From positions 62,001 to 126,000 of the forward strand of contig JAUICN010000009.1 of the NCBI GenBank assembly GCA_030427835.1: a stretch of DNA of 64,000 nucleotides. The letters are read 5' to 3'. The stretch's first letter is position 1. Every line of letters begins with the position of its first letter. Positions 2,906 through 40,155 of the stretch are shown here, in pieces. Origin of the DNA: Polyangia bacterium (GTDB lineage Bacteria; Myxococcota_A; Polyangia; Polyangiales; JAUICN01). The notes under the pieces were generated by a model. It had not been told where the DNA came from. It did no database searches and worked only from the letters and a program-made list of their open reading frames with translations. Position numbers and translations under genes: made by a program.

Positions 2906-4137
2906 GGTGTGTTCAGGATCCCCAGTTGTTTTCCCACGGATTCGAAGGCGGTGAGGGCTTGGTCGATGTGGGCGTCGGTGTGGGCGGCTGACATTTGGGT
3001 ACGGATGCGGGCCTGACCCTTGGGCACCACGGGGTAGGAGAACCCAATGACGTACACGCCTTGCTGCAGCAGGGCTTCGGCAACCTGGGCCGCAAGCCGT
3101 GCATCGCCCAGCATGACGGGAATGATGGGGTGTTCGCCCGGGAGTAGCCTAAATCCTAGCGCTTCCATGCCCCCACGGAACCGGGTGGCGTTGCGTTTGA
3201 GTTGCGCCCGCCTCTCGCCGGATTGTTCCACCAGATCCAGCACGCGGATGGAGGTTTCGGCGATCACGGGTGCCAAGGTATTTGAGAAAAGGTAGGGGCG
3301 GGATCGTTGGCGCAGCAGTTCCACGATGGGGCGGCTTGCGCAAAGGTATCCGCCCGAGGCGCCGCCCAATGCTTTTCCAAGGGTGCCAGTGAGGATGTCG
3401 ACCCGACCCATGACGCCGCAGTGTTCCGGTGAACCCCTGCCGTGCTCTCCCAGGAATCCGACGGCGTGGGAGTCGTCCACCATGACCTGGGCTCCGTATT
3501 GATCCGCAAGGTCGCACAGGCCCCCGAGGTTGGCGATCACCCCGTCCATGGAGAAGACCCCGTCGGTGACGATGAGCTTGAGGCGTGCGCCCTTTGCTTC
3601 CCCGAGGGCGCGTTCCAGGTCTTCCATGTCGTTGTTGGCGTAGCGGTAGCGTTTGGCCTTGCAGAGGCGAATGCCGTCGATGATGGAGGCGTGGTTGAGG
3701 GTGTCACTGATGACGGCGTCCTCTGGACCTAGCAAGATTTCAAAGAATCCTCCGTTGGCATCCCAACAGGAGGGGTAGAGAATGGTGTCTTCCATGTTGA
3801 GGAAGCTGGAGATGCGTTGCTCTAGGGTTTTGTGGACGTCCTGGGTGCCGCAGATGAACCGTACGGAAGCCATGCCATAGCCGTGGTGATCCAGGGAACG
3901 TTTGGCTGCTGCGACCAGCTCAGGTGCGTTGGCAAGGCCGAGATAGTTGTTGGCACAGAGGTTGAGAACCCTGCGCCCGTCGTCCAGTTGAATGATGGCG
4001 TCCTGGGGGGACTGGATCACCCGTTCGGGCTTGCGCAGCCCCTGGGATTCGATTTCCGCCAGTTGCTCGGTGGCAAATGCGGACAGCGCTGTTGGCGTGG
4101 ATCCGTTAGGTAGGGGCGTTGGGGGTAGGGAGCTCAT
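2902..4137 (-). CDS. kbl: Glycine C-acetyltransferase (2-amino-3-ketobutyrate CoA ligase)
   Basis: A PLP-dependent alpha-oxoamine synthase that splits 2-amino-3-ketobutyrate with CoA into glycine and acetyl-CoA, completing the pathway begun by Tdh. The 411-aa product has the family landmarks: [35 protein letters not shown], and [11 protein letters not shown] with the PLP Asp. The Schiff-base lysine is at about residue 255 in [15 protein letters not shown]. An N-terminal extension of about 15 residues precedes the usual start. It is the first gene of the leftward operon, and its stop overlaps the next gene by 4 bp. Its start lies 121 bp from the divergent holA. No convincing Shine-Dalgarno is seen at the ATG, so the start is moderately certain. 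Confidence 0.96.
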
Positions 4138-4258
4138 GGCGATGGAAGTAGGCTAGCCGATGGGGCCGATGGGGCGCCAGTGCGGATCAACCATGGTCCC
4201 ATGGGAGCTTTGCTGGGTCGATGCTGGGTTGATGCTGGGGTTGTGCTAGCTAGAGGGT

Positions 4259-5308
4259 GTGGCGCGCGCAGCGAAAACCGGTCGAACACCAGGGCTGGAC
4301 CAGGTTCTCAAGGGGCTTGAGGGGCAGGGCCCTGAGCCCTTGTATGTACTGGTGGGAGCGGACAGCGCACGGGTGGGGCGCGTGGTGGATGGGTTGCGCG
4401 CACGGGTGGCGGCGGACGACCCCATGGGCATGAACCAGGATGTGTTGGATGGTCAGGGGTTGGCGGCGGAGTCTGTGATCGCCGCGGCCCGTACGGTTCC
4501 CATGATGGCGCCCCGTCGTTGGGTGCTGGTCCGTGGGGCTCACCGGATGGATACCAAGGAGCTGGAGAAGCTGGTGCCCTATCTGGCGGATCCCTGTGCC
4601 ACGGCCTGTGTGGTGATAACCGCCGAGAAGTTGGATGGTCGTGGTGCGTTTGCCAAGGCCGCCAAAAAGGCGGGGGTCGTGCGTGAGGATGCCCCATTGA
4701 AGCCCAGGGACGCGGCGGGTTTTGTGGTGCAGGAGGCCAACCGCCTTGGCCACGCCCTTTCGCGGGATGTGGCAGAGGCTGTGGTGGAGACCCTGGGGGC
4801 GGATGTGGCGGCGTTGACGGATTTGGTGGAGCGGGTGTCCCTCTACGTGGGTGCTGCTGAAGGAGGAGAGGGTGGAGCTCCAATTCGTATGGAGGACGTG
4901 CGGACCCAGCTGGAGGTTCGCCCCACACAAACCGTTTGGGTCATGGTAGACGCGCTTGGCCAGGGGGATGTACGTACCTTGATACGATCGGCGGCCACGT
5001 TGCTCCAGGATGGGGAAGCTCCGCTCAAGTTGCTGGCCATGGTGTCCCGTCAGGTGCGCATGATCTCGGTGATGCACGGGGCCCTGGCTGGGGGCCAATC
5101 GGCGGATTCAGCGGCAAAAGCGGCGGGTGTGCCCCCGTTTAAGGCGAGGGAAATGGCCCAGGTGGCCAGGAAATGGTCCACAGGTCAGTTGGGCGGGGCT
5201 GCCCAGGCCCTGGCGGATTTAGATGTGGCGTTGAAGAGTAGCCGCGTGCCCGGGCCCCACCTGTTTTTGGAGTCCATGCTCCGGTTGGGCATGTCCCTGC
5301 GTACCTGA
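4259..5308 (+). CDS. holA: DNA polymerase III subunit delta
   Basis: A 349-aa protein resembling HolA, the clamp-loader subunit that opens the beta sliding clamp. Visible hallmarks are LYVLVGADSARVGRVVDGLR near the N terminus, the central AARTVPMMAPRRWVLVRG strand-loop, ADVAALTDLVERVSLYVG, and the C-terminal helical bundle (LLAMVSRQVRMI, PPFKAREMAQVARKWS, LADLDVALKSS). The length matches E. coli HolA (343 aa). The GTG at 4259 is taken as the start. It sits directly behind GAGG, so an internal start a few codons on cannot be excluded. holA followed by rpsT is a common bacterial gene order, which supports the call. Confidence 0.92.
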   Translation: MARAAKTGRTPGLDQVLKGLEGQGPEPLYVLVGADSARVGRVVDGLRARVAADDPMGMNQDVLDGQGLAAESVIAAARTVPMMAPRRWVLVRGAHRMDTKELEKLVPYLADPCATACVVITAEKLDGRGAFAKAAKKAGVVREDAPLKPRDAAGFVVQEANRLGHALSRDVAEAVVETLGADVAALTDLVERVSLYVGAAEGGEGGAPIRMEDVRTQLEVRPTQTVWVMVDALGQGDVRTLIRSAATLLQDGEAPLKLLAMVSRQVRMISVMHGALAGGQSADSAAKAAGVPPFKAREMAQVARKWSTGQLGGAAQALADLDVALKSSRVPGPHLFLESMLRLGMSLRT

Positions 5309-5739: not shown

Positions 5740-5969
5740 TTTCCGCGCATGGTGGCTTACCTCCTCGCGCGGTACCTCAACGTATGTTGAATACGCCATC
5801 GGCACCGCGCTGCGGGGGCGCTCACCCTGCACGAAAAATCTCTCCGGCGGGTAGAAGTCTTTCCGCGCGTGGTGGCTTACCTCCTCGCGCGGTACCTCAA
5901 CGTATGTTGAATACGCCATCGGCACCGCGCTGCGGGGGCGCTCACCCTGCACGAAAAATCTCTCCGGTG
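5740..5969 (-). repeat. Tandem 120-bp repeat, two copies (R2 variant)
   Basis: Bases 5740-5849 and 5860-5969 are almost identical (about 110 bp, period exactly 120), separated by a divergent 10-bp linker. Read on the minus strand each unit contains GAGCGCCCCCGCAGCGC followed by a nested stem: GGTGCC pairs with GGTACC, and inside it CGTAT with ATACG. GAGGAGGTAAGCC then follows. The flanking GCGCCCC-GCAGCGC and GGAGGTAAGCC blocks match the R2 elements at 8850-8975 and 33600-33728, so I treat this as a diverged R2 core in opposite orientation. It lies 12 bp after the rpsT stop and 31 bp before the PAP2 gene. Confidence 0.75.
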
Positions 5970-6000
5970 GGGTTTGTTTTTCTCTGGGTGACATTGTCTG

Positions 6001-6555
6001 ATGTTTGAATCTCTTTCCCAGTGGGAGGCAGGGGTTCTACGGTCGGTGGCGGGTTTGCGCTCCGAATCGTTGACCCATTTTTTCTCTCTCGTCACGGAGA
6101 TGGGTTCGGTGAAGCTCATTGCACTGCTGACACTCGGCCTGGTGGTGTGGCGGTGGCGTCACTCAAGGCGTGAGAGCTATTTTTTTGCAGCCTCCGTGGG
6201 TGGATCGGCTGTGCTTATCAAGGGGCTCAAGGTGCTTATCCAGCGGCCTCGCCCGAACGGGGTGGAAGCGCTTGCAGAAGTCACGTCGTTTTCGTTTCCC
6301 AGTGGCCATTCCATGGGATCGGCTGCCTTCTTTTTCGCGATGGCCTATTGGGTGCAATACCGCCAACCCGCCAGGGCTCCGCTGGCGTTCGCGTTGGCCG
6401 CGGCCTGTACTTTGCTCATCGGCATGAGCCGCGTGTACCTGGGAGTGCACTACCCCTCCGACGTGCTTGTGGGCTGGGTACTCGCATTTGGCATGGTCTA
6501 CGCCGCCAAACGTACCTTCCTCTGCGACCGGTGCTTTCCTCAAGGGAGTGATTGA
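6001..6555 (+). CDS. PAP2-family membrane phosphatase
   Basis: A 184-aa membrane protein of the type 2 phosphatidic acid phosphatase superfamily. The three catalytic signatures are present and in order: KVLIQRPRP, SFPSGHSMGSA with the acid-base His, and SRVYLGVHYPSDVLVG with the nucleophilic His. Several transmembrane helices surround them. Members dephosphorylate phosphatidate, undecaprenyl pyrophosphate or related lipid phosphates; the substrate cannot be read from the sequence. The ATG at 6001 follows the tandem R2-type repeats, so its promoter must lie within or before them. An R1 element starts a few bases after the stop codon. Confidence 0.92.
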   Translation: MFESLSQWEAGVLRSVAGLRSESLTHFFSLVTEMGSVKLIALLTLGLVVWRWRHSRRESYFFAASVGGSAVLIKGLKVLIQRPRPNGVEALAEVTSFSFPSGHSMGSAAFFFAMAYWVQYRQPARAPLAFALAAACTLLIGMSRVYLGVHYPSDVLVGWVLAFGMVYAAKRTFLCDRCFPQGSD

Positions 6556-6558
6556 AGG

Positions 6559-6635
6559 GACCTCGGTCGAGCAGCCACGACCGCCAGAAAAAGTTGGGTT
6601 ATTTTTCTTCTGGTCGCACCCACTCGACCGCGGTC
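6559..6635. repeat. R1 hairpin element, copy a
   Basis: A 13-bp outer stem (6559-6571 with 6623-6635, one mismatch) encloses a core containing AGTTGGGTTATTTTT flanked by CCAGAA and TTCTGG, which form an inner stem. The core middle is shared with R1 copies b-e, but the internal loop is replaced by pairing, so it is the most diverged copy. It begins 3 bp after the stop of the PAP2 gene. Confidence 0.75.
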
Positions 6636-6667
6636 TTCACCACGTCTTTTGGCGTTCCCGTGGCATT

Positions 6668-7975: not shown

Positions 7976-10900
7976 TCAGTGGAAGCTGCGGACGGGGGTT
8001 TGGGGGGCTGTGAAGGTGGGGTCTAGGGTGTGGGGTTCCCAGAGGTGGTCTGCGATGAGGTGGACGACATTGTGTTCTGCCTGGAGACTCCCTGTGATGC
8101 CCATGAGTTGTACGGTGCGTACGAGTACGGAGTACTTGTGGAATACGGTGTTCCAAATGACGCCGTTGACGAAGCCGGTTTCGTCCTCGAGGGTGAGGAA
8201 GGTGACGCCTGTGGCGGTGCCGGGTTGCTGGCGGCAGATGACACGGCCCACGTAGCGGGTGCGGGTGCCGTCGGGTAGGGCGTTGAGTTGAGCGGCCGTG
8301 GGGATGCGGTATTTGTTGAGGGTGGCGCGCATGGGTTCCATGGGGTGGCCGCGTACGGAGTGGGCGCTCGCGCGGTAGTCCCAGTGGATTTCGTCATGGC
8401 GCCCCAATGGCTGGAAGCGATACTTGGGGGCGCGGTTGTGTTGCCAGGTCAATGTTTGTTTGAGGTGGTGGATGCGTTCGCGCAGGATCCAGAGGGCTTG
8501 TCGGCGGGGGAGGTTCCAGCTGTCGAAGGCGCCGGCTTCGGCGAGTTGGGTGTAGGCTTTGAGGGGGAGGCGGGTGCGCCCGATGAGGTCGTCCAACCCT
8601 GCGTAGGGTTGCCCGCCAGGTTTGTGGCGAAGCTCCAGCATGCTTTGTTCGCGAACACCCAGTCCTTCCACATGGCGAAACCCCATGCGTAAAGCGAGTG
8701 TTGGCTGGCTTGTGCTGGACTGCAGGGACCGCGGACAGGAGGAGGAGCACCCGCCGTCAAAAGTTGGGTTGTTTTTCCTCTGGGCACACCTCCTCCTGTC
8801 CGCGGTCTTTGATTCGTTTTTACGTTGGGATATGTTGTCAAAAGGAGGCAGACCGGTTCGGATTGGAGTTGAGTGCGAGCGCCCCGGCAGCGCAGGAGTG
8901 GGGGACGCACTTGTGGTGCTTCCCCCCGACGAGCAGGGGAGGTAAGCCGCAGTCAGCCCAAGTCCGGACCGGTCTGGGAGGGGTTCTAGGGTGCAGTTCC
9001 AATGGCTGTTTTGGATGTCGATGGGGAGTACGGTGACTCCTGCGCGCTTGGCTTCTTCTACGATGGTGGCGGGGGTGTAGAAGCCCATGGGTTGGGCGTT
9101 GAGTAGGGCGCAGGCGAAGACTTCGGGGTGGTGGCATTTAAGCCAGGCGGTGGCGTAGGCGATGAGGGCAAAGCTTGCGGCGTGGCTTTCGGGGAAGCCG
9201 TATTCGCCGAAGCCGCGGATTTGGGAGAAGATGCGTTCGGCAAATTCCCTGGAGATGTCGTTTTCGATCATGCGGCCCACGAGTTTTTTCTCATGTCTCT
9301 CGATGCGGCCCGATTGTTTCCATGCGCCCATGTCTCGGCGGAGTTGATCGGCTTCGCCACCGGTGTAGCCGCCCACCAGGATGGCGATTTTCATGACCTG
9401 CTCCTGGAAGATGGGTATGCCCATGGTTTTTTTAAGGGCCTGTTTCAGGGCGGGGTGAGGGTAGTCCTCGGGCTCTTCACCGTTTCGGCGTTTCAGGTAA
9501 GGGTGCACCATGTTTCCCTGGATGGGGCCGGGGCGAACGAGAGCCACTTCCACGACCAGGTCGTAGAAGGTTTGGGGTTTGAGTCGTGGCAGCATGGTCA
9601 TCTGCGCCCGGCTTTCGATTTGAAAGACGCCCACGGTTTCACCACGGCTGATCATGTCGTAGGTGGCTTTGTCTTCCTGGGGCAGGGTGGCCATGTTGAG
9701 TTCGATGTCTTTGTGCTGTTTGAGCAGGTCAAAGCCCATGTGCAGTTGGGTCAGCGCACCCAGGCCCAGGAGATCCACCTTGAAGAGGCCCAGGTCCTCC
9801 ACGGCGTATTTGTCCCACTGGATGACGGTGCGGTTTTCCATGGTGGCGGGTTCCACGGGTACCAGGGTGTCCACGGGTTCGTGGCCGAGCAGGAATCCGC
9901 CAGGGTGAATGGAGAGGTGCCGGGGGAAGGTTTTGAGTTGGCCCACCAGGTCGAGCATGTGGTGGTGGACAAAGGCGGTGGGATCGAGGCCGGCATGGGT
10001 GAGGGCGTCGTCTTGTAGGTTGGCGAATCGACTGCCGAGTAACTTTGCTAGGCGGTCCAATGCGGTTTCAGGAATGCCCAGGGCCTTTCCCACGTCACGT
10101 ACGGCGGATCGGGTGCGGTAGCGGACCACGTTGGCGACCATGGCGGCGCGCCTGCGCCCGTAGCGTTGGTACATCCATTGGATGACTTCTTCCCGGCGGT
10201 TGTGTTCGATGTCCAGATCGATGTCGGGGGGCTCGGCCCGTTCCATGCTGAGGAAGCGTTCGAAGAGTAGGTCGAGCCGAATGGGGTCAATGGCGGTGAT
10301 GCCTAGGCAGTAACAGACGACGCTGTTGGCGGCGCTCCCCCGGCCCTGGCAAAGGATGTTCTCTCGACGGCAAAACTGTACGATTTCATACATGGTGAGA
10401 AAGTAGCCGCCGTACTCGAGTTTTTGGATGAGGGTGAGCTCTCGTTCGATTTGCTGTTGGACCTCCTGGGGGATTCCCTGGGGGTGGACTTCCTTGGGGT
10501 AGCGATGTTGGGCGCCCTTGAGGGTGAGCTTTCGTAGCCAATCACTTTCGCTGATGCCGTCGGGGCGTTTCTCTCCTGGATACACGTAGTGGATTTCATC
10601 GAGGGTGAAGGTGCAGCGTTCGGCGATCTCGAGGGAACGGTGTAGGGAGGGGAGGTCGTCTGCGAAGCGGGCGTGCATGCAGGCGTGGGTTTTGAGATCG
10701 TGTTCGGCGTTGGGTTGTAGTTGTGTGCCTGCTTGATTCAGGGTGGTGCCCAGGCGAATGCAGGTGAGTACGTCCTGCAGGCGGCGGCGCCCGGCGTGGT
10801 GGTAGAGGACCTGTGTGTTGGCCACAGTTGGGATGTTGAGCTGTTTGCATTCACGGCGAATACGATGTTCGAGTCGGTGTTCATCATTGGGGGTGAGGTG

Positions 10901-11644
10901 ACGGGTGTAGAGGCCGTAGAGTCGATCGCTGAAGGTGTCCTTAAGGTGGCGCAGCAGGGTGGGGTCGGTGCATAGGGCGATGAGGCCTTCGTTGTGCTGG
11001 AGAACTTCGTTCAATTCGGTGTGAGCCATGCCTTTGTCCCCGCCCTGGTTTTTGTTGTTGGCATGGCCTTTGGTGAGTAGGCGGCAGAGGTTGCCGTAGC
11101 CGGTGCGGTTTTGGGCAAGGAGGAGTAGGGGGAGGGGGTTGTGTGGTGTGCTTGAAGTTTCCCGAATAAAGGGGCCGTGGGAGGAACGAGGCGCACCCGC
11201 CGTCAAAAGTTGGGTTGTTTTTCCTCTGGGCACACCTCGTCCCTCCCACGGCCTTTGCTCGGCTTCTGTGATTGAACTGTCCTGTTGATGTTGCAATTTA
11301 GAGGAGACGTTTGGTTTTGAATTCAGTGAATGGTGTTTTGGGGTTGGAGAGTTGGATTGGTGGGGGGCGGGTGCCCGGCGCGCGGTTGATGCACGGCGGG
11401 CACCCGGAAGGGCGATGGGGTGGACGACTGCTCCGTGGATGAGGTGGATGCCGAGTTCCTTGGCTTTCATGTGGGCTTGCACGGCACTGTAGAGGCCGTG
11501 GCGGTCGGTGAGCGCCATGGAAGGGAGCCCGAGGGTGTGGGCCTGTTGTACGAGTTCACTGGGGTGGCTTGCGCCCTCAAGAAAGCTGAAGTTGGATTGC
11601 ACCCAGAGCGGTGCGTAACTCGGGGTGGGTTGCTTTGGAGGCAT
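7976..11644 (-). CDS. dnaE2: Error-prone DNA polymerase III alpha subunit DnaE2/ImuC, with two in-frame repeat insertions
   Basis: Catalytic subunit of the SOS-inducible ImuA-ImuB-DnaE2 translesion system. The N-terminal PHP-like domain starts FSFLEGASHPSELVQQA. The polymerase palm contains GRGSAANSVVCYCLGIT and the catalytic PPDIDLDIEH. QRFGFPESHA-type (GEYGFPESHAASFALIAY) and OB-fold (YVGRVICRQQ) regions follow. At 1222 aa it is about 150-170 aa longer than usual. The excess lies at two sites that translate repeat elements: about 85 residues after LIHGAVV (R1 copy c and a GC hairpin), and about 85 residues after RSGLGLT (R2-1 and R1 copy b). The polymerase sequence resumes at LALLLLAQNRTGYG-like and LALRMGFRHVEGLG text. 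The frame stays open, so the gene may be functional. Its start overlaps the imuB stop by one base (TGATG). Confidence 0.93.
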   Translation of the reverse strand: MPPKQPTPSYAPLWVQSNFSFLEGASHPSELVQQAHTLGLPSMALTDRHGLYSAVQAHMKAKELGIHLIHGAVVHPIALPGARRASTARRAPAPHQSNSPTPKHHSLNSKPNVSSKLQHQQDSSITEAEQRPWEGRGVPRGKTTQLLTAGAPRSSHGPFIRETSSTPHNPLPLLLLAQNRTGYGNLCRLLTKGHANNKNQGGDKGMAHTELNEVLQHNEGLIALCTDPTLLRHLKDTFSDRLYGLYTRHLTPNDEHRLEHRIRRECKQLNIPTVANTQVLYHHAGRRRLQDVLTCIRLGTTLNQAGTQLQPNAEHDLKTHACMHARFADDLPSLHRSLEIAERCTFTLDEIHYVYPGEKRPDGISESDWLRKLTLKGAQHRYPKEVHPQGIPQEVQQQIERELTLIQKLEYGGYFLTMYEIVQFCRRENILCQGRGSAANSVVCYCLGITAIDPIRLDLLFERFLSMERAEPPDIDLDIEHNRREEVIQWMYQRYGRRRAAMVANVVRYRTRSAVRDVGKALGIPETALDRLAKLLGSRFANLQDDALTHAGLDPTAFVHHHMLDLVGQLKTFPRHLSIHPGGFLLGHEPVDTLVPVEPATMENRTVIQWDKYAVEDLGLFKVDLLGLGALTQLHMGFDLLKQHKDIELNMATLPQEDKATYDMISRGETVGVFQIESRAQMTMLPRLKPQTFYDLVVEVALVRPGPIQGNMVHPYLKRRNGEEPEDYPHPALKQALKKTMGIPIFQEQVMKIAILVGGYTGGEADQLRRDMGAWKQSGRIERHEKKLVGRMIENDISREFAERIFSQIRGFGEYGFPESHAASFALIAYATAWLKCHHPEVFACALLNAQPMGFYTPATIVEEAKRAGVTVLPIDIQNSHWNCTLEPLPDRSGLGLTAAYLPCSSGGSTTSASPTPALPGRSHSTPIRTGLPPFDNISQRKNESKTADRRRCAQRKNNPTFDGGCSSSCPRSLQSSTSQPTLALRMGFRHVEGLGVREQSMLELRHKPGGQPYAGLDDLIGRTRLPLKAYTQLAEAGAFDSWNLPRRQALWILRERIHHLKQTLTWQHNRAPKYRFQPLGRHDEIHWDYRASAHSVRGHPMEPMRATLNKYRIPTAAQLNALPDGTRTRYVGRVICRQQPGTATGVTFLTLEDETGFVNGVIWNTVFHKYSVLVRTVQLMGITGSLQAEHNVVHLIADHLWEPHTLDPTFTAPQTPVRSFH
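8727..8807 (-). repeat. R1 hairpin element, copy b (inside dnaE2)
   Basis: A perfect 19-bp outer stem (8727-8745 with 8789-8807) surrounds the conserved R1 core. On the minus strand the core is GTGCCCAGAGGAAAAACAAC then CCAACTTTTGACGGCGGGTG. The element is translated as part of dnaE2 in a frame giving [14 protein letters not shown]. It lies 42 bp from R2-1, so this dnaE2 insertion is composite. Confidence 0.9.
8850..8975 (+). repeat. R2 hairpin element, copy 1 (inside dnaE2)
   Basis: A 15-bp outer stem (8850-8864 with 8961-8975) has two positions that are U-G on the plus strand and A-C on the minus strand, so a plus-strand RNA folds best. The core is GAGCGCCCCGGCAGCGCAGG, then a GTGGGGG/CCCCC helix capped by GCAC-GTGC, then CGACGAGCAGGGGAGGTAAG. 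It is translated antisense within dnaE2. The right arm (8961-8975) codes for PDRSGL, which looks like native DnaE2 sequence. Confidence 0.88.
11173..11253 (-). repeat. R1 hairpin element, copy c (inside dnaE2)
   Basis: A 19-bp outer stem (11173-11191 with 11235-11253). The single imperfect pair is A-C on the plus strand and G-U on the minus strand. The core is identical to copy b, but here it is read in a different dnaE2 frame ([13 protein letters not shown]). Confidence 0.9.
11369..11405. repeat. GC-rich hairpin inside the first dnaE2 insertion
   Basis: GGGTGCCCG (11369-11377) and CGGGCACCC (11397-11405) form a perfect 9-bp stem with a 19-nt loop. It lies in the same low-conservation insert as R1 copy c, coding for PGARRASTARRAP. 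It may be a third kind of inserted element. Confidence 0.5.
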
Positions 11645-13200: not shown

Positions 13201-13243
13201 TTTGTTTTCTCAGAGAGGAAGGTGTGAGGCGTTGGACTGAGGG

Positions 13244-13324
13244 GGCCGCGAGAAGGACGAAGCGCACCCGCCGTCAAAAGTTTAGTTATTTTTCCTCTGG
13301 GCACACTCCGTCCTTCTCGCGGCC
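13244..13324 (-). repeat. R1 hairpin element, copy d (between imuA and imuB)
   Basis: A 19-bp outer stem (13244-13262 with 13306-13324). The one non-Watson-Crick position is A-C on plus and G-U on minus. The core differs from b, c and e only in the loop (AGTTTAGTTATTTTT instead of AGTTGGGTTGTTTTT). It occupies most of the 202-bp gap between the imuA stop and the imuB start, so the operon transcript would carry it as a long hairpin. Confidence 0.88.
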
Positions 13325-13402
13325 TTTGTTGCCCTTCTAGATGGGTAGGTGCTTTTCTGAGGTTGGAAGATTGTGGATATCGGTTGGAGTTTGGGTAGTG
13401 GT

Positions 13403-26034: not shown

Positions 26035-27393
26035 CTACTCGGCGAACGCGACTATGTCGGCGTGGGTGGCCCGGAGGGAAACCCGTTGGTCGAATGTGAA
26101 GTTGTTTCTGGGCAGTGTGATTTTTTTTAGGTGTGTCGCGTCGGAAATGGATGCTGCGGTAGCCACGCCGACCGAAGTGCCCGTGAACGTGGCCTCCCTC
26201 AGGTTGGGGAGCCCTTGGAGTAGGGTGATGGCTCCAGTATCTGTGAGCGGTGTATCGTGAAAGCTGACTTTTTCCAGCGTTGTGACGTGAGTGAACGCCC
26301 TGGCGATGTTGTCGCCGGCCTGGGTGTCGTTGACGACGATCTCCTTCAGGTTTGGAAAGCTGTCTTCCAGGTTGGGAATCTCTTTGCCTGGAGTCTCCTG
26401 GTCCGTAATTTGGGTGCCCTTCATGTTGAGAGTTTCTAGGTGAGGAAGTCCATGGGCCAGGGCGCCGAGTGCTTGGTTTCCTACAAGTGTTTGAACAAGG
26501 TACAGCTCGGTGAGTCGTTTTAGGTGAACCCCAATTTTGATGCCGCCAAGGTCTGTGACTCGGGTGCGATTGAGTACGAGTTTTGTCAGTTGCGGCATGT
26601 GTTGCACGATGGCGTCGACACCCTCGTCATCCAATTCGTTCCCTTCCAAAACCTTGGTGTGGTTCTTCCAAAGGATGATTCTTTGGAGTGTGACAAGGCC
26701 GATGATGGCTTTGGCCAATTCGTTTTCGACTCGGTGAGCCGTAATTTCCCGGGCGCTAAGGAGGGAGTGCACCATGTCTGGGAAGGTGTTTTCTTCTGTG
26801 TTGAAACCGAAGGTGCCGCCGGCATGCCGGTTGGAACAGCTGTGCACATCCACGGTACGGTTTGCCCCGTTCCACTGGTCGACGGTGAGCAGAACCCAGT
26901 TATCTACCTTTGGAGCACCCTTGTCGTCCTTGATGCTGGTAATGCGGAGGACGGTCGTTCGGCGGGTTGGTCTTTTGCTGTGGAATGCAATCTCGAGGAT
27001 CGGCTTGGATTCGGGGGTGAGTGTAGAATGCCTGGGACGGTTTCGATCTCTCCAGCCTACGGAGAGGTCCACACGATCCAGTTTAAACAGGGTGGCGAGC
27101 TGTGGTGACACCGAAGCATGAAACCCATTTTCGCTGCGAATGGCCTGTTCGATGGTATTTGCGATGATCGCGTGATCCGCCGTGGGGTTCGTTTGATTCA
27201 GTTCCCCTAGGGCGTGTTCCGTGCGTTTGATCACAGGCGATGCAAGTGCTTCGCAGGGAGTGCCGATGGTGGATTCCTGTTTGACGTGCGCGCCCTGGGA
27301 GGTGCTGCCGGCTACGCAACCGTGAACCACCATGGCGGTGGCGGGTACAAAAAGGATAAGTTGAAGGAGGGACTGATGAACGGGTGTACCCAT
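26035..27393 (-). CDS. Leucine-rich-repeat-like lipoprotein
   Basis: About 452 aa. The signal peptide from ATG 27393 is MGTPVHQSLLQLILFVP, ending MVVHGC. The N-terminal half matches the lipoprotein at 19498-20703 in motif order. The C-terminal half is a run of ribonuclease-inhibitor-like LRRs of about 23-25 residues: DEGVDAIVQHMPQLTKLVLNRTRVTD, LKRLTELYLVQTLVGNQALGALAH, LPHLETLNMKGTQITD, FPNLKEIVVNDTQAGD, LEKVSFHDTPLTDTG, LREATFTGTSVG. It is probably a surface or periplasmic binding protein; the partner is unknown. The frame extends upstream to 27432 but the signal peptide fits 27393. Confidence 0.82.
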   Translation of the reverse strand: MGTPVHQSLLQLILFVPATAMVVHGCVAGSTSQGAHVKQESTIGTPCEALASPVIKRTEHALGELNQTNPTADHAIIANTIEQAIRSENGFHASVSPQLATLFKLDRVDLSVGWRDRNRPRHSTLTPESKPILEIAFHSKRPTRRTTVLRITSIKDDKGAPKVDNWVLLTVDQWNGANRTVDVHSCSNRHAGGTFGFNTEENTFPDMVHSLLSAREITAHRVENELAKAIIGLVTLQRIILWKNHTKVLEGNELDDEGVDAIVQHMPQLTKLVLNRTRVTDLGGIKIGVHLKRLTELYLVQTLVGNQALGALAHGLPHLETLNMKGTQITDQETPGKEIPNLEDSFPNLKEIVVNDTQAGDNIARAFTHVTTLEKVSFHDTPLTDTGAITLLQGLPNLREATFTGTSVGVATAASISDATHLKKITLPRNNFTFDQRVSLRATHADIVAFAE

Positions 27394-27480
27394 GATACTG
27401 CGTTGAGTGCACAGGCAGATACCCCCTTCCACTGTTTTTGTCGAGGTTAGGGGGGATGGAAAGGCTCCTGGTAACGCCCG

Positions 27481-27630
27481 TTATTGCACCAGCGCAGAAG
27501 AACTTTGGGCCAACTCGTGGAGGGTTTCGTGGGGGTCGTGGCGATGCCAGGCTGTGTGCTTTCCGAGGGCCGTGGCGTTTTGGAAGGCGCGGCCGTTGGT
27601 GACGACGGGGTACTTGAGGTGGGTGGTGGC
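27481..27630 (-). pseudogene. Degenerate second copy of the epimerase 3' end
   Basis: Starting four codons after the vapC stop, the minus strand encodes [17 protein letters not shown] and then [11 protein letters not shown] before a TAA at 27481-27483. These match the C terminus of the epimerase at 28335-29267 ([17 protein letters not shown] and [11 protein letters not shown]), with a diverged middle. No start or upstream epimerase sequence accompanies it. It is therefore a 3'-end remnant separated from the intact gene by vapBC. Confidence 0.8.
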
Positions 27631-27642
27631 TGAAGTGATGCT

Positions 27643-28038
27643 TTATGGGGCTACAAACATTTCTTCTTTGAGCAGGTTTTTGTCAAAGGTTGCAACCTGC
27701 GTGAACCCTGCGGATGACGCGTGCTGTGCGATCAAATAGTCTGCGAAGTCGCCCTTGCCGTTTTCAAAGGAGTCCAGAGCTCGGGCGATCCTGTCTTCGT
27801 CCACAAAGGCAAGGTGGCCTGCACGGAGTAGCTGACGCATGACGCCGATGATCGGTTCTTTTTTGAACTTGTAGAGCCGCTTCAAAACCCAGATGGTTTC
27901 ACACAGTACGATGTCTGAGATGAAGAGCGATTGGTTTTGGGTTATCGCTCGCTTGATCAGTTTTGAGGCTTTTGCTGATTGGGCTTTGTCGTCGTCCACC
28001 AGAAACCGAACCACCACATTGGTGTCGAGTGCAATCAT
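27643..28038 (-). CDS. vapC: PIN-domain toxin, VapC-type ribonuclease
   Basis: A 131-aa PIN-domain protein with the expected acidic quartet: Asp in MIALDTNVVVRFL, Glu in IVLCETIWVL, and Asp in GDFADYLIA followed by Asp in ATFDKNLL. VapC toxins are Mg-dependent RNases that cleave tRNA or rRNA and are neutralised by the cognate antitoxin. The start overlaps the antitoxin stop by 4 bp (ATGA), the classic arrangement. The G+C looks lower than in the neighbouring genes, in keeping with acquisition by transfer. Confidence 0.93.
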   Translation of the reverse strand: MIALDTNVVVRFLVDDDKAQSAKASKLIKRAITQNQSLFISDIVLCETIWVLKRLYKFKKEPIIGVMRQLLRAGHLAFVDEDRIARALDSFENGKGDFADYLIAQHASSAGFTQVATFDKNLLKEEMFVAP

Positions 28039-28277
28039 GGGCTCTTGCCCGCTTCTTGGGCGATGGCTTCATTCATGTCTTCTACGCTGACTCCGCGAAC
28101 GGAACTCTTTAAAACCCCTTTTAGGCTCATGAGGTCTACGTTTTCTGGTTCTACGTAGACCTTGCCGTCTTCCTGGACTCGGAACGCGATTTGATCTCCA
28201 GTGTCCACACCCATGAGCTTTCGAATGGCTTTCGGTAGTGTGATTTGACCCTTGCTGGTGAGGGTGGCTGCCGGCAT
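28035..28277 (-). CDS. vapB: AbrB/MazE-type antitoxin of the vapBC pair
   Basis: An 80-aa protein with the swapped-hairpin AbrB fold: MPAATLTSKGQITLPKAIRKLMGV, then DQIAFRVQEDGKVYVEPE. The C-terminal tail (SSVRGVSVEDMNEAIAQE) would contact the toxin. AAGGAG lies 5 bp before the ATG. Such antitoxins repress their own operon by binding palindromes near the promoter, and a perfect 16-bp inverted repeat lies just upstream (28295-28330). Confidence 0.93.
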   Translation of the reverse strand: MPAATLTSKGQITLPKAIRKLMGVDTGDQIAFRVQEDGKVYVEPENVDLMSLKGVLKSSVRGVSVEDMNEAIAQEAGKSP

Positions 28278-28294
28278 GATGGCTCCTTCCGCTT

Positions 28295-28330
28295 TTGATT
28301 AATCCTTACATATTTGTAAGGATTAATCAA
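28295..28330 (-). promoter_or_regulatory. Perfect palindromic operator upstream of vapBC
   Basis: Two perfectly complementary 16-bp arms (28295-28310 and 28315-28330, TTGATTAATCCTTACA and its complement) flank a 4-bp TATT centre. The site is AT-rich in a GC-rich neighbourhood. It begins 18 bp upstream of the vapB ATG and ends 4 bp before the epimerase stop. It is most probably the VapB/VapBC autoregulatory site, overlapping the promoter. It could additionally act as a hairpin on transcripts from the epimerase. Confidence 0.75.
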
Positions 28331-28334
28331 GGTG

Positions 28335-29267
28335 TCATGGTGATGTCGGCGCAGGATGGATCTGGGCGAACTCGTGGAGGGTTTCGTGGGGGTCCTGGCG
28401 GGCTTGGAATTGGGTTTCTTTTTGGAAGGCGCTGCCGTCGATGACCACGGGGTACTTGAGGTGGGTGGTGGCACCCTTGGGTAGGGTGGGCATGCCGAAC
28501 TTGCCCATGGTGTAGGGGAAGACCCGTTCGGGGATGGGTACGTTGGTACGGTTTGTGTGTTGGATGAGGGTGGAGAGCGGCATGGGTTTGGGGCCACAGA
28601 CGTTGAAGACACCGCGGAGGTTTTTCTCCATGGCGAGGGTGATGGCGCAGGCGGCGTCGTGCTCGTGCATGAATTGAAAGAGGGGGTCGAAGCCGAGCAC
28701 GGTGGGTACGCGCGGGCCTTGCAAGTAGTTGGCGAGGGTGCCGTGGTGTGCGGGGCCCAGCGTGTAGCAAATGCGTAGCACGGCGGTGTTGAGTTCGGGC
28801 ATGCGCCAGAGGGCGGAGCCGGCGTAGAGGTCGGCGGCCACAAGATCTGCCAGTTCTGGGAAGGCTTCGAGGCCCATGGGGGGCTCGTCCTCGGTGTGGT
28901 AGAGCGGGGAGTCGGGTGCGGCGCCGTAGTAGGTGTGGCGGCCCACGAAGATGGCTTGCTTGACGTTGTACTGCTGGCAATGATCGAAAATGGCGCGGGT
29001 ACCCAATAGGTTGATGCGGGAGCGTTCCGCGGAACGCATTTTGATCTGGGTGACGGTGGCCATGTGGATCACCGTGTCTGGAAGGAAGTTGCGAAAGACC
29101 TGTTCAGCGTCCCGTTTTCGGATGTCGGCCTCGTGGATTTGGATGGCCTTGGGGGCATCGGCCCAGGGGCGTCTGTCCATGCCCACCACGTCGTGGCCTT
29201 GTTCAAGGAGGCTGTGTGCCACAAGTTGGCCCATCTTTCCTGCGATGCCGGTAATCAGAACTTTCAT
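28335..29267 (-). CDS. NAD-dependent epimerase/dehydratase family protein
   Basis: A 310-aa extended short-chain dehydrogenase. The Rossmann motif [33 protein letters not shown] is followed by the [11 protein letters not shown] strand and a [19 protein letters not shown] region in place of the canonical YxxxK. The catalytic Tyr-Lys pair is therefore not obvious and the reaction is uncertain. Sugar-nucleotide or steroid-type substrates are typical of the family. ATG 29267 gives the glycine-rich start; longer frames run into R1 copy e and are not used. Its 3' end is duplicated in degraded form beyond vapBC. Confidence 0.85.
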
Positions 29268-29339: not shown

Positions 29340-29420
29340 AACTGCGGGAGAAAAGGGGCGCACCCGCCGTCAAAAGTTGGGTTGTTTTTCCTCTGGGCAC
29401 GCCCCTTCCCTCCCGCAGTT
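29340..29420 (-). repeat. R1 hairpin element, copy e
   Basis: A 20-bp outer stem (29340-29359 with 29401-29420). Two positions are A-C on plus and G-U on minus. The core is identical to copies b and c. It sits in the divergent gap between the epimerase and TonB-receptor genes. It is the only copy not placed within or after a gene end. Confidence 0.9.
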
Positions 29421-29490
29421 TTTGTTTGGCTGTGACGTTGAAGCTGAAGAGTCGCGGTATTGCAGTGGGCGAAACAGGGAACTGTGTGCG

Positions 29491-33599: not shown

Positions 33600-33728
33600 C
33601 AAACAGGCTGAGGTTGGGTTTGAATGAGAGTGCCCCGGCAGCGCAGGAGTGGGGGACGTACACGAGAGGTACTTCCCCCCGACGAGCAGGGGAGGTAAAC
33701 CACAGTCAGGCCAACCTCAGCCTGTTTG
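33600..33728 (+). repeat. R2 hairpin element, copy 2 (over the yqeY stop codon)
   Basis: A perfect 18-bp outer stem (33600-33617 with 33711-33728). The core matches R2-1 over GCCCCGGCAGCGCAGGAGTG and CCCCCCGACGAGCAGGGGAG. The inner cap is GTAC-GTAC where R2-1 has GCAC-GTGC, a compensatory change. The right arm contains the TGA stop (33717-33719) of the YqeY gene. Confidence 0.9.
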
Positions 33729-36291: not shown

Positions 36292-39200
36292 CTATTTTAC
36301 ATAGACTTCGATGGCTTGGTTGGTGCCCCCACCCCAATGGGAATCGTTTTTTTGAAGCTCGAGGCCTCCGCTTGCGGCGTGCCATACGTCGGGGTGGGAT
36401 CCAAATTTCTTTTGACCTTGATAGAGCACGGTTGCTGGTGTGACACCGGCACCCACGAAGTGCGTGCCGAGTTGCGTCACGTCGTACACGGGGGAGCAAT
36501 GGGAGCTGTGGGTGCAGCTCAACATGCGAATGGTGGATTGTCGCCACCCGTTCATGACGTCGTCATCGTACATGGCGAGGCTTGTGACGGACTTGGTGGT
36601 GGCTGCACCGGCCGTGCGGATGTGGACTTGGGCCGAGACTCCGTCGGCAACCAGGGATTGCCACAGTTGGTAGTGATTGTTGGCGCCGGTGCTGGCGTCC
36701 AGGGTGCTGAGGCTTCCTGGAATCACGCCGCCGTCACGCATGAGGCTGGCGCCACTGGGGCCGCCTGTGCCGTCGGTGGATAGGATGAGGGTCCATCCGC
36801 CGGCGCCGGTGTCGTCGCCTGTGGCATCGAAGGTCATGTCGCAGTAGGCGCGATAGGCCGTGTAGCCACCGGTACCATCTGGATCGATCCAGTAGGTGCC
36901 GTCGCCTGCGTCATGGCCGTCGCCCTTGATGGTGGCGCAGGTGGTGCCAGGACATCGAAAGTTTCCTCCCTTGACCATGCAGGGGTCTTGGCAGGCCGTG
37001 GCCATGTAGTGGTTGTAGAGGTCGGTGATGTCACTTGAGCCGAGCACCGCATCGTAGATCATGAGCTCGTCAATCCGTGCCCGGAGTTCACCGTTGACGT
37101 CGTAGTCCGTTGCAGAGTCGGTATCGAGCAGTGTAAGGGGGTTTTGTCCGACAACAAGCATTCCCGTGGTGGCCATGTTGTGACCGGCTTGGTGGGTTCC
37201 TGTGGCTTCGGATGCCCCATCCAGATAGTAACCGAGTGCGCCGCTACTTTGATCCCAGGTAATGGCCACAAGGTGCCATTGGTTATCCCGGAGGTCGGTG
37301 GTGGAACTCCAGTCAGGGCCCAGGCTGTTGCCGATCATCACGCGTGGGGTACTCGTCATTTGCACCTCAAAGTCGTTGACGCTGGTGGAGGTGGCGTAGG
37401 CGAGCACCGTACCCGTGTTGTCAGGGTCCGTATCCATACGAATCCAGAAGGCCACGGATAGATCAGAGCCCGTGCTTGAGAAACCCGTCATGGGGTTGAC
37501 GACCATGCGTTGGTAGTCTGTCTCGTCGAAGAAGACACCCGTATTGTCGTCGGATGAACTCGTGATGCCCGCCGTGTTGAGTAAAGGAGTGGTCTTATAA
37601 ACGCCATGATGACCGTTGCCAGAGGCGTCGCTCGCGGGGTCGGTATCCGCGGTTTCCCCAAAGCGGTAGAACGCGACGGGGCCAAGGCTCGCGTTGGCGC
37701 CACAGCTGTCACAGGCATCCGGAGTGCTGTCGCCGTCGGTGTCCAAGTTGTCGTCCCCGGCAGCGCATAGGTCGCAGGCATCGGGAACTCCGTCGGAGTC
37801 CATATCGATGTTGTCGTCGCCGGAGGCGCAAACGTCGCACCCGTCGGGGACTCCGTCGGAGTCCGCATCGAGGGCGTCATCGGATCCGGCACAGGCGTCA
37901 CATCCATCGGGGACCCCGTCGGAGTCTGAATCCACGGCGTCGTCGGATCCTGGGCACATGTCGCAGGCATCGGGCACGCCATCGCTGTCGGCGTCGATGT
38001 TGTCATCGCCGGAGGCACAGATGTCGCATCCATTGGGTACGCCGTCCATGTCGGTGTCTTGGCTGTCGTCCGATCCGGCACAGGCGTCGCAACCGTCAGG
38101 GACGCCGTCGGAGTCTGTATCGACTGCGTCATCGGATCCTGGGCAGATGTCGCAGGCGTCTGGAACGCTGTCGGAATCCATGTCGATGTTGTCGTCGCCG
38201 GAGGCACAAATGTCGCACCCGTTGGGCACCCCATCCATGTCCGTGTCCTGGGCGTCGTCGTGGCCTGCGCAGACGTCGCATCCGTCGGGAACGCCGTCCG
38301 CATCGGTGTCGATGGCGTCGTCGGATCCGGCACAGATGTCACAGGCGTCGGGAACTCCGTCGGAGTCGGCATCGGGGCCGTTGTCGTCGGATCCTGCGCA
38401 AATGTCGCATCCATCGGGAACCCCATCGGAGTCGGCGTCGATGCTGTCGTCGTGGCCTGCGCAGACGTCGCAGCCGTTGGGTACGCCGTCGGAGTCCGCG
38501 TCCATGCTGTCATCGGACCCGGAACAGACGTCGCAACCGTCAGGCACGCCGTCCATGTCGGTATCGATGGCGTCGTCGGATCCTGCGCAGATGTCGCATC
38601 CGTCGGGCACACCGTCCGAGTCGGTATCGATGGCGTCGTCGGATCCGGCACAGATGTCGCAGCCGTCGGGGACTCCATCGGAATCCATGTCGATGGCGTC
38701 GTCGGACCCGGGGCAGATGTCGCAGAAGTTGGGTACGGTATCCATGTCGGTGTCGTCGGCATCGTTGCCGCCGGCGCAGACGTCACAGGCGTTGGGCACG
38801 CCGTCGGAGTCTGCATCCATGGTGTCGTCGGATCCGGCGCACAGGTCGCACCCGTCAGGCACACCGTCCGAGTCGGCGTCGATGGTGTCATCGGATCCAG
38901 CGCAGACGTCACAGGCGTTGGGCACGCCGTCGGAATCCACATCGGCGGTGTCGTCGCCAGAGGCACAGATGTCGCAGCCATCGGGAACCCCGTCGCTGTC
39001 GGTGTCGATGGCGTCATCGGATCCGGCGCAGATGTCGCAAGCATCGGGGACGCTGTCGGAATCCATGTCGATGTTGTCGTCTCCGCTGATGCAGATATCA
39101 CAGCCGTTGGGCACCCCGTCGCTGTCGGTGTCTTGGGTGTCGTCGGAACCCGCGCAGATATCGCAGGCGTCGGGGACGCCGTCACTGTCGGCGTCCACTG

Positions 39201-40155
39201 CGTCATCGCCCGCGGAACAAATGTCGCAACCGTCCGGCACGCTGTCGCCGTCGGTGTCGACTGTGTCGTCGTGGCCGGGGCAGATGTCACAGGCGTCTGC
39301 CACGCCGTCAGAGTCCGCGTCTGGATCGGTGGGTTGGCACAGTTCGCAGGCGTTGGGGGTACCGTCCATATCGGTGTCGATGTTGTCGTCGCCTAGCGCG
39401 CAGATGTCGCAGCCGTCGGGCAAGCTGTCGCCATCGGTATCCACGTTGTCGTCGTGCCCCGCGCAAATGTCACAGGCGTCAGGAACTCCATCGGTATCGG
39501 CATCCGCGCCGTTGTCATCTGAGCCGGGGCAAATGTCGCATCCGTCGGGAACTCCGTCTGAATCCGCATCGTCACTGTCTGGGTTGCCCGCACAGACGTC
39601 GCAGCCATCAGGAATGGTGTCCATGTCGGCGTCCGTACCGTCGTCGTGGCCGGCGCAGGTGTCGCAACCATCGGGAACTCCGTCCGAATCGGCGTCCACG
39701 GTGTCGTCGGATCCTGGGCAGGCGTCGCAACCATCGGGGATGCCGTCCGAGTCCGCATCCAGGCTGTCGTCGGTTCCCGGACAAAGGTCCATGGAATCGC
39801 AAACGCCATCCATGTCCGAGTCGGCGGTGCAGCCCATGCTGCCGTCGGTTCCTCCATCGTTGCCGAGGCCACTGTCGGGTGTGCTGCCGTCGGGTGTGCT
39901 GCCGTCTGTGGTAGCGTCGTCGGTTGTGTTTGCGTCCTGGACGCCACCGTCGCTGCTCATCTGGCCGGAGCTGGAATCCAGTGATCCATCCAGCGTGGGG
40001 GTGTTTCCCTCGTCTTTGGTGCCCTTGCCTTTTCCGCAGGCGGGTAGCAGAAGAATTGCGCTGAGGGTGTAGAGGATGATCCAAGGAATAGCCCCAGAAT
40101 TACTCCGGCGTTGCACCATGGAGAGGGTTTGGGGTGCCCGTAGAAATTCCTTCAT
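36292..40155 (-). CDS. Giant lipoprotein: about 33 TSP3-like Ca-binding repeats, LamG-like and fibrinogen-like domains
   Basis: Up to 1287 aa. The signal peptide ends LSAILLLPACG. A Ser/Asp/Gly-rich spacer is followed by about 33 tandem repeats of about 21 aa of the type DICAGSDDxxDxDSDGVPDGC, the thrombospondin type-3-like calcium-binding pattern with paired Cys. A LamG/concanavalin-like domain follows (GPVAFYRFGETADT, SVAFWIRMDTD, WHLVAITWDQSSG, ARIDELMIYDAVLGSSDI). The C-terminal domain (DGTYWIDPDG, YCDMTFDATGDDTGAGGWTLIL) recalls fibrinogen-C/COLFI-like modules. It is probably a long, calcium-stiffened surface adhesin. ATG 40119 is an alternative start with a shorter signal peptide. Confidence 0.88.
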   Translation of the reverse strand: MKEFLRAPQTLSMVQRRSNSGAIPWIILYTLSAILLLPACGKGKGTKDEGNTPTLDGSLDSSSGQMSSDGGVQDANTTDDATTDGSTPDGSTPDSGLGNDGGTDGSMGCTADSDMDGVCDSMDLCPGTDDSLDADSDGIPDGCDACPGSDDTVDADSDGVPDGCDTCAGHDDGTDADMDTIPDGCDVCAGNPDSDDADSDGVPDGCDICPGSDDNGADADTDGVPDACDICAGHDDNVDTDGDSLPDGCDICALGDDNIDTDMDGTPNACELCQPTDPDADSDGVADACDICPGHDDTVDTDGDSVPDGCDICSAGDDAVDADSDGVPDACDICAGSDDTQDTDSDGVPNGCDICISGDDNIDMDSDSVPDACDICAGSDDAIDTDSDGVPDGCDICASGDDTADVDSDGVPNACDVCAGSDDTIDADSDGVPDGCDLCAGSDDTMDADSDGVPNACDVCAGGNDADDTDMDTVPNFCDICPGSDDAIDMDSDGVPDGCDICAGSDDAIDTDSDGVPDGCDICAGSDDAIDTDMDGVPDGCDVCSGSDDSMDADSDGVPNGCDVCAGHDDSIDADSDGVPDGCDICAGSDDNGPDADSDGVPDACDICAGSDDAIDTDADGVPDGCDVCAGHDDAQDTDMDGVPNGCDICASGDDNIDMDSDSVPDACDICPGSDDAVDTDSDGVPDGCDACAGSDDSQDTDMDGVPNGCDICASGDDNIDADSDGVPDACDMCPGSDDAVDSDSDGVPDGCDACAGSDDALDADSDGVPDGCDVCASGDDNIDMDSDGVPDACDLCAAGDDNLDTDGDSTPDACDSCGANASLGPVAFYRFGETADTDPASDASGNGHHGVYKTTPLLNTAGITSSSDDNTGVFFDETDYQRMVVNPMTGFSSTGSDLSVAFWIRMDTDPDNTGTVLAYATSTSVNDFEVQMTSTPRVMIGNSLGPDWSSTTDLRDNQWHLVAITWDQSSGALGYYLDGASEATGTHQAGHNMATTGMLVVGQNPLTLLDTDSATDYDVNGELRARIDELMIYDAVLGSSDITDLYNHYMATACQDPCMVKGGNFRCPGTTCATIKGDGHDAGDGTYWIDPDGTGGYTAYRAYCDMTFDATGDDTGAGGWTLILSTDGTGGPSGASLMRDGGVIPGSLSTLDASTGANNHYQLWQSLVADGVSAQVHIRTAGAATTKSVTSLAMYDDDVMNGWRQSTIRMLSCTHSSHCSPVYDVTQLGTHFVGAGVTPATVLYQGQKKFGSHPDVWHAASGGLELQKNDSHWGGGTNQAIEVYVK
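37700..39795 (-). repeat. Coding tandem repeat, 63-bp period, about 33 copies
   Basis: The DNA encoding the TSP3-like repeats has a regular 63-bp period (21 codons). A few units are 19 or 22 codons, for example the QPTDPDADSDGVAD unit. Copies are similar but not identical. The repetition keeps long antisense frames open on the plus strand, which are artefacts. Confidence 0.85.

Follow-up and report, generated by a model that had tools for sequence, protein, structure and literature searches.

A vapBC toxin-antitoxin pair between an epimerase gene and a second copy of its 3' end in a Polyangia bacterium: probable insertion with long target duplication

Gene content and organisation of the locus

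The window, i.e. the whole stretch of 64,000 nucleotides that was analysed, belongs to a genome of 3.3 Mb assembled in 30 contigs and estimated as 98% complete. On its minus strand an epimerase gene, vapB, vapC and a second copy of the epimerase 3' end follow one another in this order. The epimerase gene (28335..29267, minus strand) is intact and encodes an NAD-dependent epimerase/dehydratase (SDR; PF01370, E 2.6e-22). Its reading frame is open to 29363, and the ATG at 29267 was considered as the likely start, being the methionine from which relatives with 60-65% identity align. The next gene downstream (26035..27432, minus strand) encodes a leucine-rich-repeat protein (PF12799) and constitutes the outer flank of the inserted region.

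The segment lying between the two copies, as delimited by the repeat boundaries and by its G + C content, measures 718 nt (27631..28348, minus strand) and contains vapB and vapC only, with margins of 71 nt 5' of the vapB start and 12 nt 3' of the vapC stop. Its G + C content is 50%, versus 62% and 65% in the two copies and 61% in the epimerase gene. The vapB gene (28035..28277, minus strand) encodes an antitoxin of the AbrB/MazE/PrlF type of 80 aa (PF04014, E 1.3e-11; TIGR01439, E 1.2e-11), and its end overlaps the start of vapC (27643..28038, minus strand), which is intact and encodes a PIN-domain toxin of 131 aa (PF01850, E 9e-16). The acidic residues D5, E47, D97/D100 and D119 of VapC, which we take to be catalytic, are all present. 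On the basis of the overlapping genes and of Pfam and TIGR matches above cut-off, the pair was classified as a predicted type II VapBC toxin-antitoxin system.

A perfect palindrome of 36 nt with 16-nt arms and a 4-nt loop (28295..28330, core CCTTAC-N6-GTAAGG) is a likely candidate for the VapBC operator/promoter; no sigma-70-like match was obtained for it. Among 52 related vapBC loci, 15 have the motif CCTTRC-N-GYAAGG at the same place, just 5' of vapB, and since the core of the palindrome in the window corresponds to this motif, the insert seems to begin at or near the operator.

No recombinase gene was detected by Pfam in the 718-nt insert. PADLOC gave no match for VapB and VapC of the window, and Rfam gave none over the whole window. 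A protein search of the genome with its own VapC retrieved only the query, and four other PIN genes exist in this genome. A phage or plasmid vehicle was considered and rejected: a scan of viral contigs for VapC returned two pattern matches and no relatives, and plasmid-borne VapC relatives (431 records) were all less than 60% identical.

The duplicated gene end

The copy in use at the end of the epimerase gene (28349..28472, minus strand, 124 nt) has the same length as the C termini of relatives, and the decayed downstream copy (27492..27630, minus strand, 139 nt) was delimited by nucleotide alignment to it. The two copies are direct repeats in the order of 100 bp. Their alignment (28472-28349 against 27630-27492) has a score of 145, versus 43 for the best of 500 shuffles, and includes an ungapped block of 53 nt with 92% identity (28420-28472 / 27578-27630, start-to-start spacing 842) and another of 52 nt with 85% identity (28349-28400 / 27492-27543, start-to-start spacing 857); blastn gives 78% identity across both copies. 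Homology of the downstream copy begins abruptly, 12 nt past the vapC stop, and this copy is in frame ([49 protein letters not shown], then a stop). The original prediction of a duplicated epimerase end beyond vapC and in the same orientation is confirmed by this alignment, as is the restriction of the repeat to the gene end; the repeated part, predicted at ~50 codons, is in fact of 41 codons. The divergence that had been attributed to the copy was also recovered, with 78% identity versus about 93-98% at five of the loci described below (L137, L197, L155, L075 and L085).

Over 31 codons, the two copies differ by ~7.5 amino-acid-changing and 3.5 silent changes, which corresponds to 0.10 and 0.17 differences per site, respectively, so that one copy has been at most weakly constrained. 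The repeat consists of epimerase coding sequence and exists in just two copies genome-wide; when the whole genome was searched at the DNA level with positions 27400-28520, only the locus itself and its own palindrome were matched.

The closest epimerase relatives that were compared belong to other families of one order, with at most ~65% identity, and the named records among epimerase relatives are mostly from Myxococcota. None of 60 loci has, within the available flank, a tandem copy of the epimerase gene or another copy of its 3' end, this flank being shorter than 400 nt downstream for 8 of the 51 loci listed and some genomes being present in both collections. One partial epimerase copy, in G018, was rejected as merely the end of a contig. 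Residues [12 protein letters not shown] are common to both copies of the window and missing in relatives, which indicates that the duplication arose in the lineage of the window.

Several other repeats are present in the window. A dispersed repeat of 85-110 nt has five copies (29346-29440, 13233-13330, 11170-11264, 8716-8827 and 6550-6637), one of them just 5' of the epimerase gene; it folds into a long hairpin (-36 to -55 kcal/mol) and is MITE/REP-like, with no match in Rfam. A second dispersed repeat of ~100 nt (8863-8961 and 33614-33714) is 86% identical between copies, and at 5740-5971 a 120-nt unit is tandemly duplicated with 98% identity. Finally, ~32 copies of a 63-nt unit at 37763-39773, within the gene 36292-40155 (minus strand), encode acidic DxDxDGxPDGCDxC repeats in a protein of 1287 aa.

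Survey of direct repeats around vapC and PIN loci

Direct repeats were searched for in three sets of loci, window excluded: vapC relatives of the order (25 loci), vapC relatives of the phylum (23 loci) and other PIN genes of the order (74 loci). The score of a locus was that of the best direct repeat between the 1 kb on either side of it, with a threshold of 80. The PIN set was derived from 81 PIN genes at 80 places, near the top of the matches listed, and loci with less than 500 nt on one side were left out, which removed 4 from the first vapC set and 7 from the 81 PIN loci. Nucleotide scores were preferred to tblastx self-comparison, which was dropped on account of many chance matches in G + C-rich loci.

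Repeats with a score of 80 or more were found at 6 of 25 vapC loci of the order, 5 of 23 of the phylum and 4 of 74 PIN loci, that is, at 15 of 122 loci, against 5 of 387 points placed as controls on the PIN contigs (p 1.2e-6, the control points lying on the same contigs as the loci and being not fully independent). For the PIN set alone, comparison with the controls gave a p of 0.04; the flanks of epimerase genes, used as another control, reached the threshold in 1 case out of 168. In a narrower test, a score of 50 was reached by 9 of 130 loci, the number predicted from mismatched flank pairs being none. No such repeat exists at 107 of the 122 vapC/PIN loci. Three of the five control matches come from a single repetitive stretch of L158, and another lies inside a repeat-bearing gene (L211); the fifth, in L136, is itself a possible toxin insertion, judging from a weak AbiEii match below cut-off. 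ParE-type toxins showed little excess (1 of 28 loci with a score of 80 or more, 2 skipped), which suggests that addiction alone is insufficient to produce the bias and counts against simple retention by addiction.

In 7 of the 15 loci, window not counted, the repeat is the 3' end of a neighbouring gene or a stretch near it. It comprises the last 14 codons and the stop of the neighbouring gene in L075 (G096; 49 nt), the last 64-65 codons and the stop of a gene in L137 (G096; 195 nt, flanking a vapC), and about 72 codons and the stop of a DUF4143 ATPase gene in L197 (about 215 nt); the genes concerned encode a homocysteine methyltransferase in L076 (G095; 57 nt) and a cytochrome P450 in L085 (89 nt), and the repeats of L155 (70 nt) and L087 (112 nt) are also at or near a gene 3' end. 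Similar vapBC pairs beside other duplicated gene ends, which the original prediction had proposed to look for, are thus found at unrelated genes within the same order; the phylum-wide set has none (0/23). These repeats of 49 to 215 nt have no common sequence between loci. One copy of the gene is complete or longer and the other is truncated, and the toxin operon may be oriented either way relative to the gene. Silent versus amino-acid-changing differences between copies number 4:0 in L137, 2:0 in L085 and 3:1 in L155, a pattern that suggests two alleles rather than the decay of one copy. In the other 8 loci, a dispersed repeat of up to ~240 nt lies on both sides of vapBC (L228, L229, L232 and probably L219), the repeat is of low complexity (L220) or includes the end of a broken vapC (L100), or is not clearly a gene end (L090 and L186). 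L219, L220, L228, L229 and L232 are the five loci of the phylum-wide set.

The distance from the toxin stop to the downstream copy is -1 nt in L075, 0 in L090, 5 in L197, 8 in L137, 11 in L155 and 12 in the window, as well as 6 in L080 (score of 51 only) and 25 in L076. It does not exceed 12 nt in 6 of the 16 cases with a score of at least 80, window included, and such closeness would be rare if the copy started anywhere in the searched kilobase. The upstream edge is more variable than the downstream edge.

Other toxin-like genes were also observed between repeats. In L268 (G094), direct repeats of 357 nt with 96% identity (1972-2328 and 4128-4484) enclose an FGE-sulfatase-like and an AbiEii/nucleotidyltransferase-like gene, the second copy beginning 11 nt past the stop of the latter. 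In L136, an AbiEii-like gene lies between two copies (2265-2368 and 4700-4803) of a 104-nt repeat that corresponds to the 5' end of a DUF6079/BrxC-like gene; one of these two AbiEii-like proteins is above and the other below the Pfam cut-off. A ParE-family toxin gene lies between identical 30-nt stretches in L275 (246-275 and 1261-1290 of the reversed locus, one of them in a tRNA-Ala gene), and in L277 a ParE-type toxin gene is enclosed by copies (201-477 and 2260-2534, at least 275 nt) of a gene end, that of a TrpG-like glutamine amidotransferase.

Empty and filled sites in sister species

Empty and filled sites were observed for two vapBC insertions of the same order, L075 and L137, within one genus (G094, G095 and G096). 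The flanks of L075 are contiguous in the sister species G095 (C145) and G094 (C1), which have a single 49-nt copy and no vapBC. The L075 cassette is present elsewhere in both: in G095 as L076 (671 nt, 88% identity), at another gene and with another repeat, and in G094 as L077 (450 nt, 90% identity), where it is shortened on the 5' side and much of vapB is missing. The part conserved between L075, L076 and L077 stops at most 5 nt from the vapC stop.

At the L137 site, G094 lacks the insert, and its gene end and downstream flank share a single copy of the repeat; in G095 only the gene side is matched. Both L137 copies carry the states of their own species when compared with the sisters. Within the L137 insert (positions 1764-1901 of the query sequence) lies a dispersed repeat of ~137 nt with many copies in G094, G095 and G096, some of them ~0.9-1.1 kb apart, which is perhaps a cassette array.

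For L076, neither of the two sisters has a clean empty site, the intergenic region being different in all three sister species. The gene side and the far side are ~4 kb apart in G096, and in G094 the site is occupied by 14 kb of sequence that includes additional partial copies of gene ends; no integrase was found among the 7 proteins of this island scanned with Pfam (3 without any match).

Discussion

We consider it probable (about 0.7) that the window contains a minimal vapBC cassette inserted at the 3' end of the epimerase gene with a long target duplication. A cassette of ~0.7 kb, extending from the operator to the toxin stop codon, would have entered this gene end and left ~125 nt of target on either side; the upstream copy would preserve the intact gene, and the downstream copy, being free, would have decayed. 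An insertion that duplicates its target accounts for single-copy empty sites, for repeats unrelated between loci, for an intact gene and for one cassette at different genes. The window locus would have arisen like L075 and L137, its closest relatives compared being from other families of the order. The original prediction had proposed either an element carrying its own copy of the gene end or the erosion of a tandem paralogue. Insertion of vapBC at the gene end, with the duplicate tied to the insertion, is retained; target duplication is preferred over a copy brought by the element because the empty sites of L075 and L137 are single-copy in the sisters and the repeats differ by locus.

The import of vapBC together with the epimerase 3' end of another strain, by homologous recombination or by crossover of a circle in the gene end, would displace the old tail downstream and predicts an identical layout. 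The copies of L137, L085 and L155, which differ almost only silently like two functional alleles, would fit such an import, and strain-to-strain recombination after a first insertion would also give this silent pattern. However, a donor with vapBC already at that gene end is required, amino-acid-changing differences exceed silent ones in the window, both copies of L137 share own-species states against the sisters, and the L075/L076 cassette is located at unrelated genes with unrelated repeats; we regard this import as unlikely. The joining of a circular vapBC element to the gene 3' end by an integrase acting in trans appears more unlikely still. Gene 3' ends are classical attachment sites, and the ParE-family gene of L275 is bracketed by two copies of a 30-nt piece of a tRNA-Ala gene, but the 718-nt insert is without a recombinase, the repeats (49 to 215 nt) are unrelated to one another in sequence, and one cassette occupies unrelated targets in sister species. 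A mobile element with a fixed attachment site was rejected for the same dissimilarity of repeats between loci.

The least probable reading, to which very little weight is given, is that vapBC fell into a tandem second epimerase gene since eroded to its 3' end alone. The remnant is indeed in frame and in the same orientation, and some relatives (G003, G012 and G036) have two epimerase paralogues; these are located on different contigs, however, and a second copy or 3' end is present in the flanks of 0 of 60 relatives, which disfavours the erosion originally proposed. Moreover, the remnant is limited to the last 41 codons and cut 12 nt from the toxin stop, and unrelated genes show the same layout.

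For an insertion with target duplication, the duplication may result from the fill-in of a staggered break that had captured a fragment or, alternatively, from a template switch re-entering upstream of the exit point; a break or a template switch, and not an element-borne recombinase, would then be the maker of the duplication. If the segment between the repeats were deleted, the antitoxin would be lost, the toxin freed and the cell poisoned; the pair would persist for this reason, whereas a non-addictive insert between repeats of this length would often be lost by recombination. It is conceivable, although we hold it as rather doubtful, that vapBC is itself the moving unit: a cassette from operator to stop would be copied without transposase, with its right end set by the end of the toxin gene and target duplications of 49 to >200 nt, and would be kept since precise deletion between the repeats would be lethal, through a pathway common to restriction-modification genes. 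If this is true, addictive modules are a class of transposase-free mobile element.

According to the available text of a review (PMC2654758), solitary chromosomal toxin-antitoxin operons are highly mobile, and the way in which they are fixed is not understood. Comparing filled with empty sites among sister species exposes one route of movement for such operons. This route matches the one described for the other kind of addictive module, restriction-modification genes, and suggests that a cassette between direct repeats would be lost quickly unless its loss kills.

Comparison with known systems

Prophage e14 is inserted at icd and has its own integrase. As in the window, the gene 3' end is duplicated at both ends of the insert and the gene remains intact; e14 is however a prophage with an integrase, and the insert described here consists of 718 nt with vapBC alone. 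Toxin-antitoxin cassettes of integrons, as described in the text seen of PMC2654758, are likewise compact operons with their own promoter, mobile between repeats. They differ by shared attC repeats and an integrase, whereas here each repeat is a piece of its target gene's coding sequence, specific to the locus and single at the empty site, and the genome of the window has only two copies of its repeat and no integrase in the insert. Transposed Arabidopsis genes (PMC2869330, accessible part) are similarly bracketed by direct repeats that are present at the orthologous empty site; that case concerns a eukaryote, and the route proposed there is circle excision followed by homologous re-insertion.

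The kind of event considered here is already known. For the restriction-modification genes of Helicobacter pylori it has been described under the name 'insertion with long target duplication' (Nobusato et al. 2000, Gene 259:99, as cited in PMC1643837, PMC3874152, PMC2654758, PMC3031569 and PMC2869330), and in the text available of PMC1643837 the long duplications are reported as having been found by comparison of empty and filled sites. Section 7 of PMC3874152 gives target duplications 'in the order of 100 bp' for some restriction-modification systems and contains no such statement for toxin-antitoxin systems; the term 'direct repeat' does not occur in the text available of PMC2701414. A solitary vapBC with this layout was not found reported in a literature search that missed most subscription papers, and as far as this search reached, the vapBC cargo and the multi-locus evidence are new. 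Both in the published H. pylori description, as far as its citing papers relate it, and here, an addictive unit without transposase is inserted in the chromosome with long target duplications of variable length. The present case differs in its cargo, a two-gene vapBC operon, in its Myxococcota-like hosts, in its targets, which are gene 3' ends, and in a downstream copy that often begins right at the toxin stop. As the published cargo is restriction-modification genes, the vapBC case is a variant of insertion with long target duplication and not a strict member of it.
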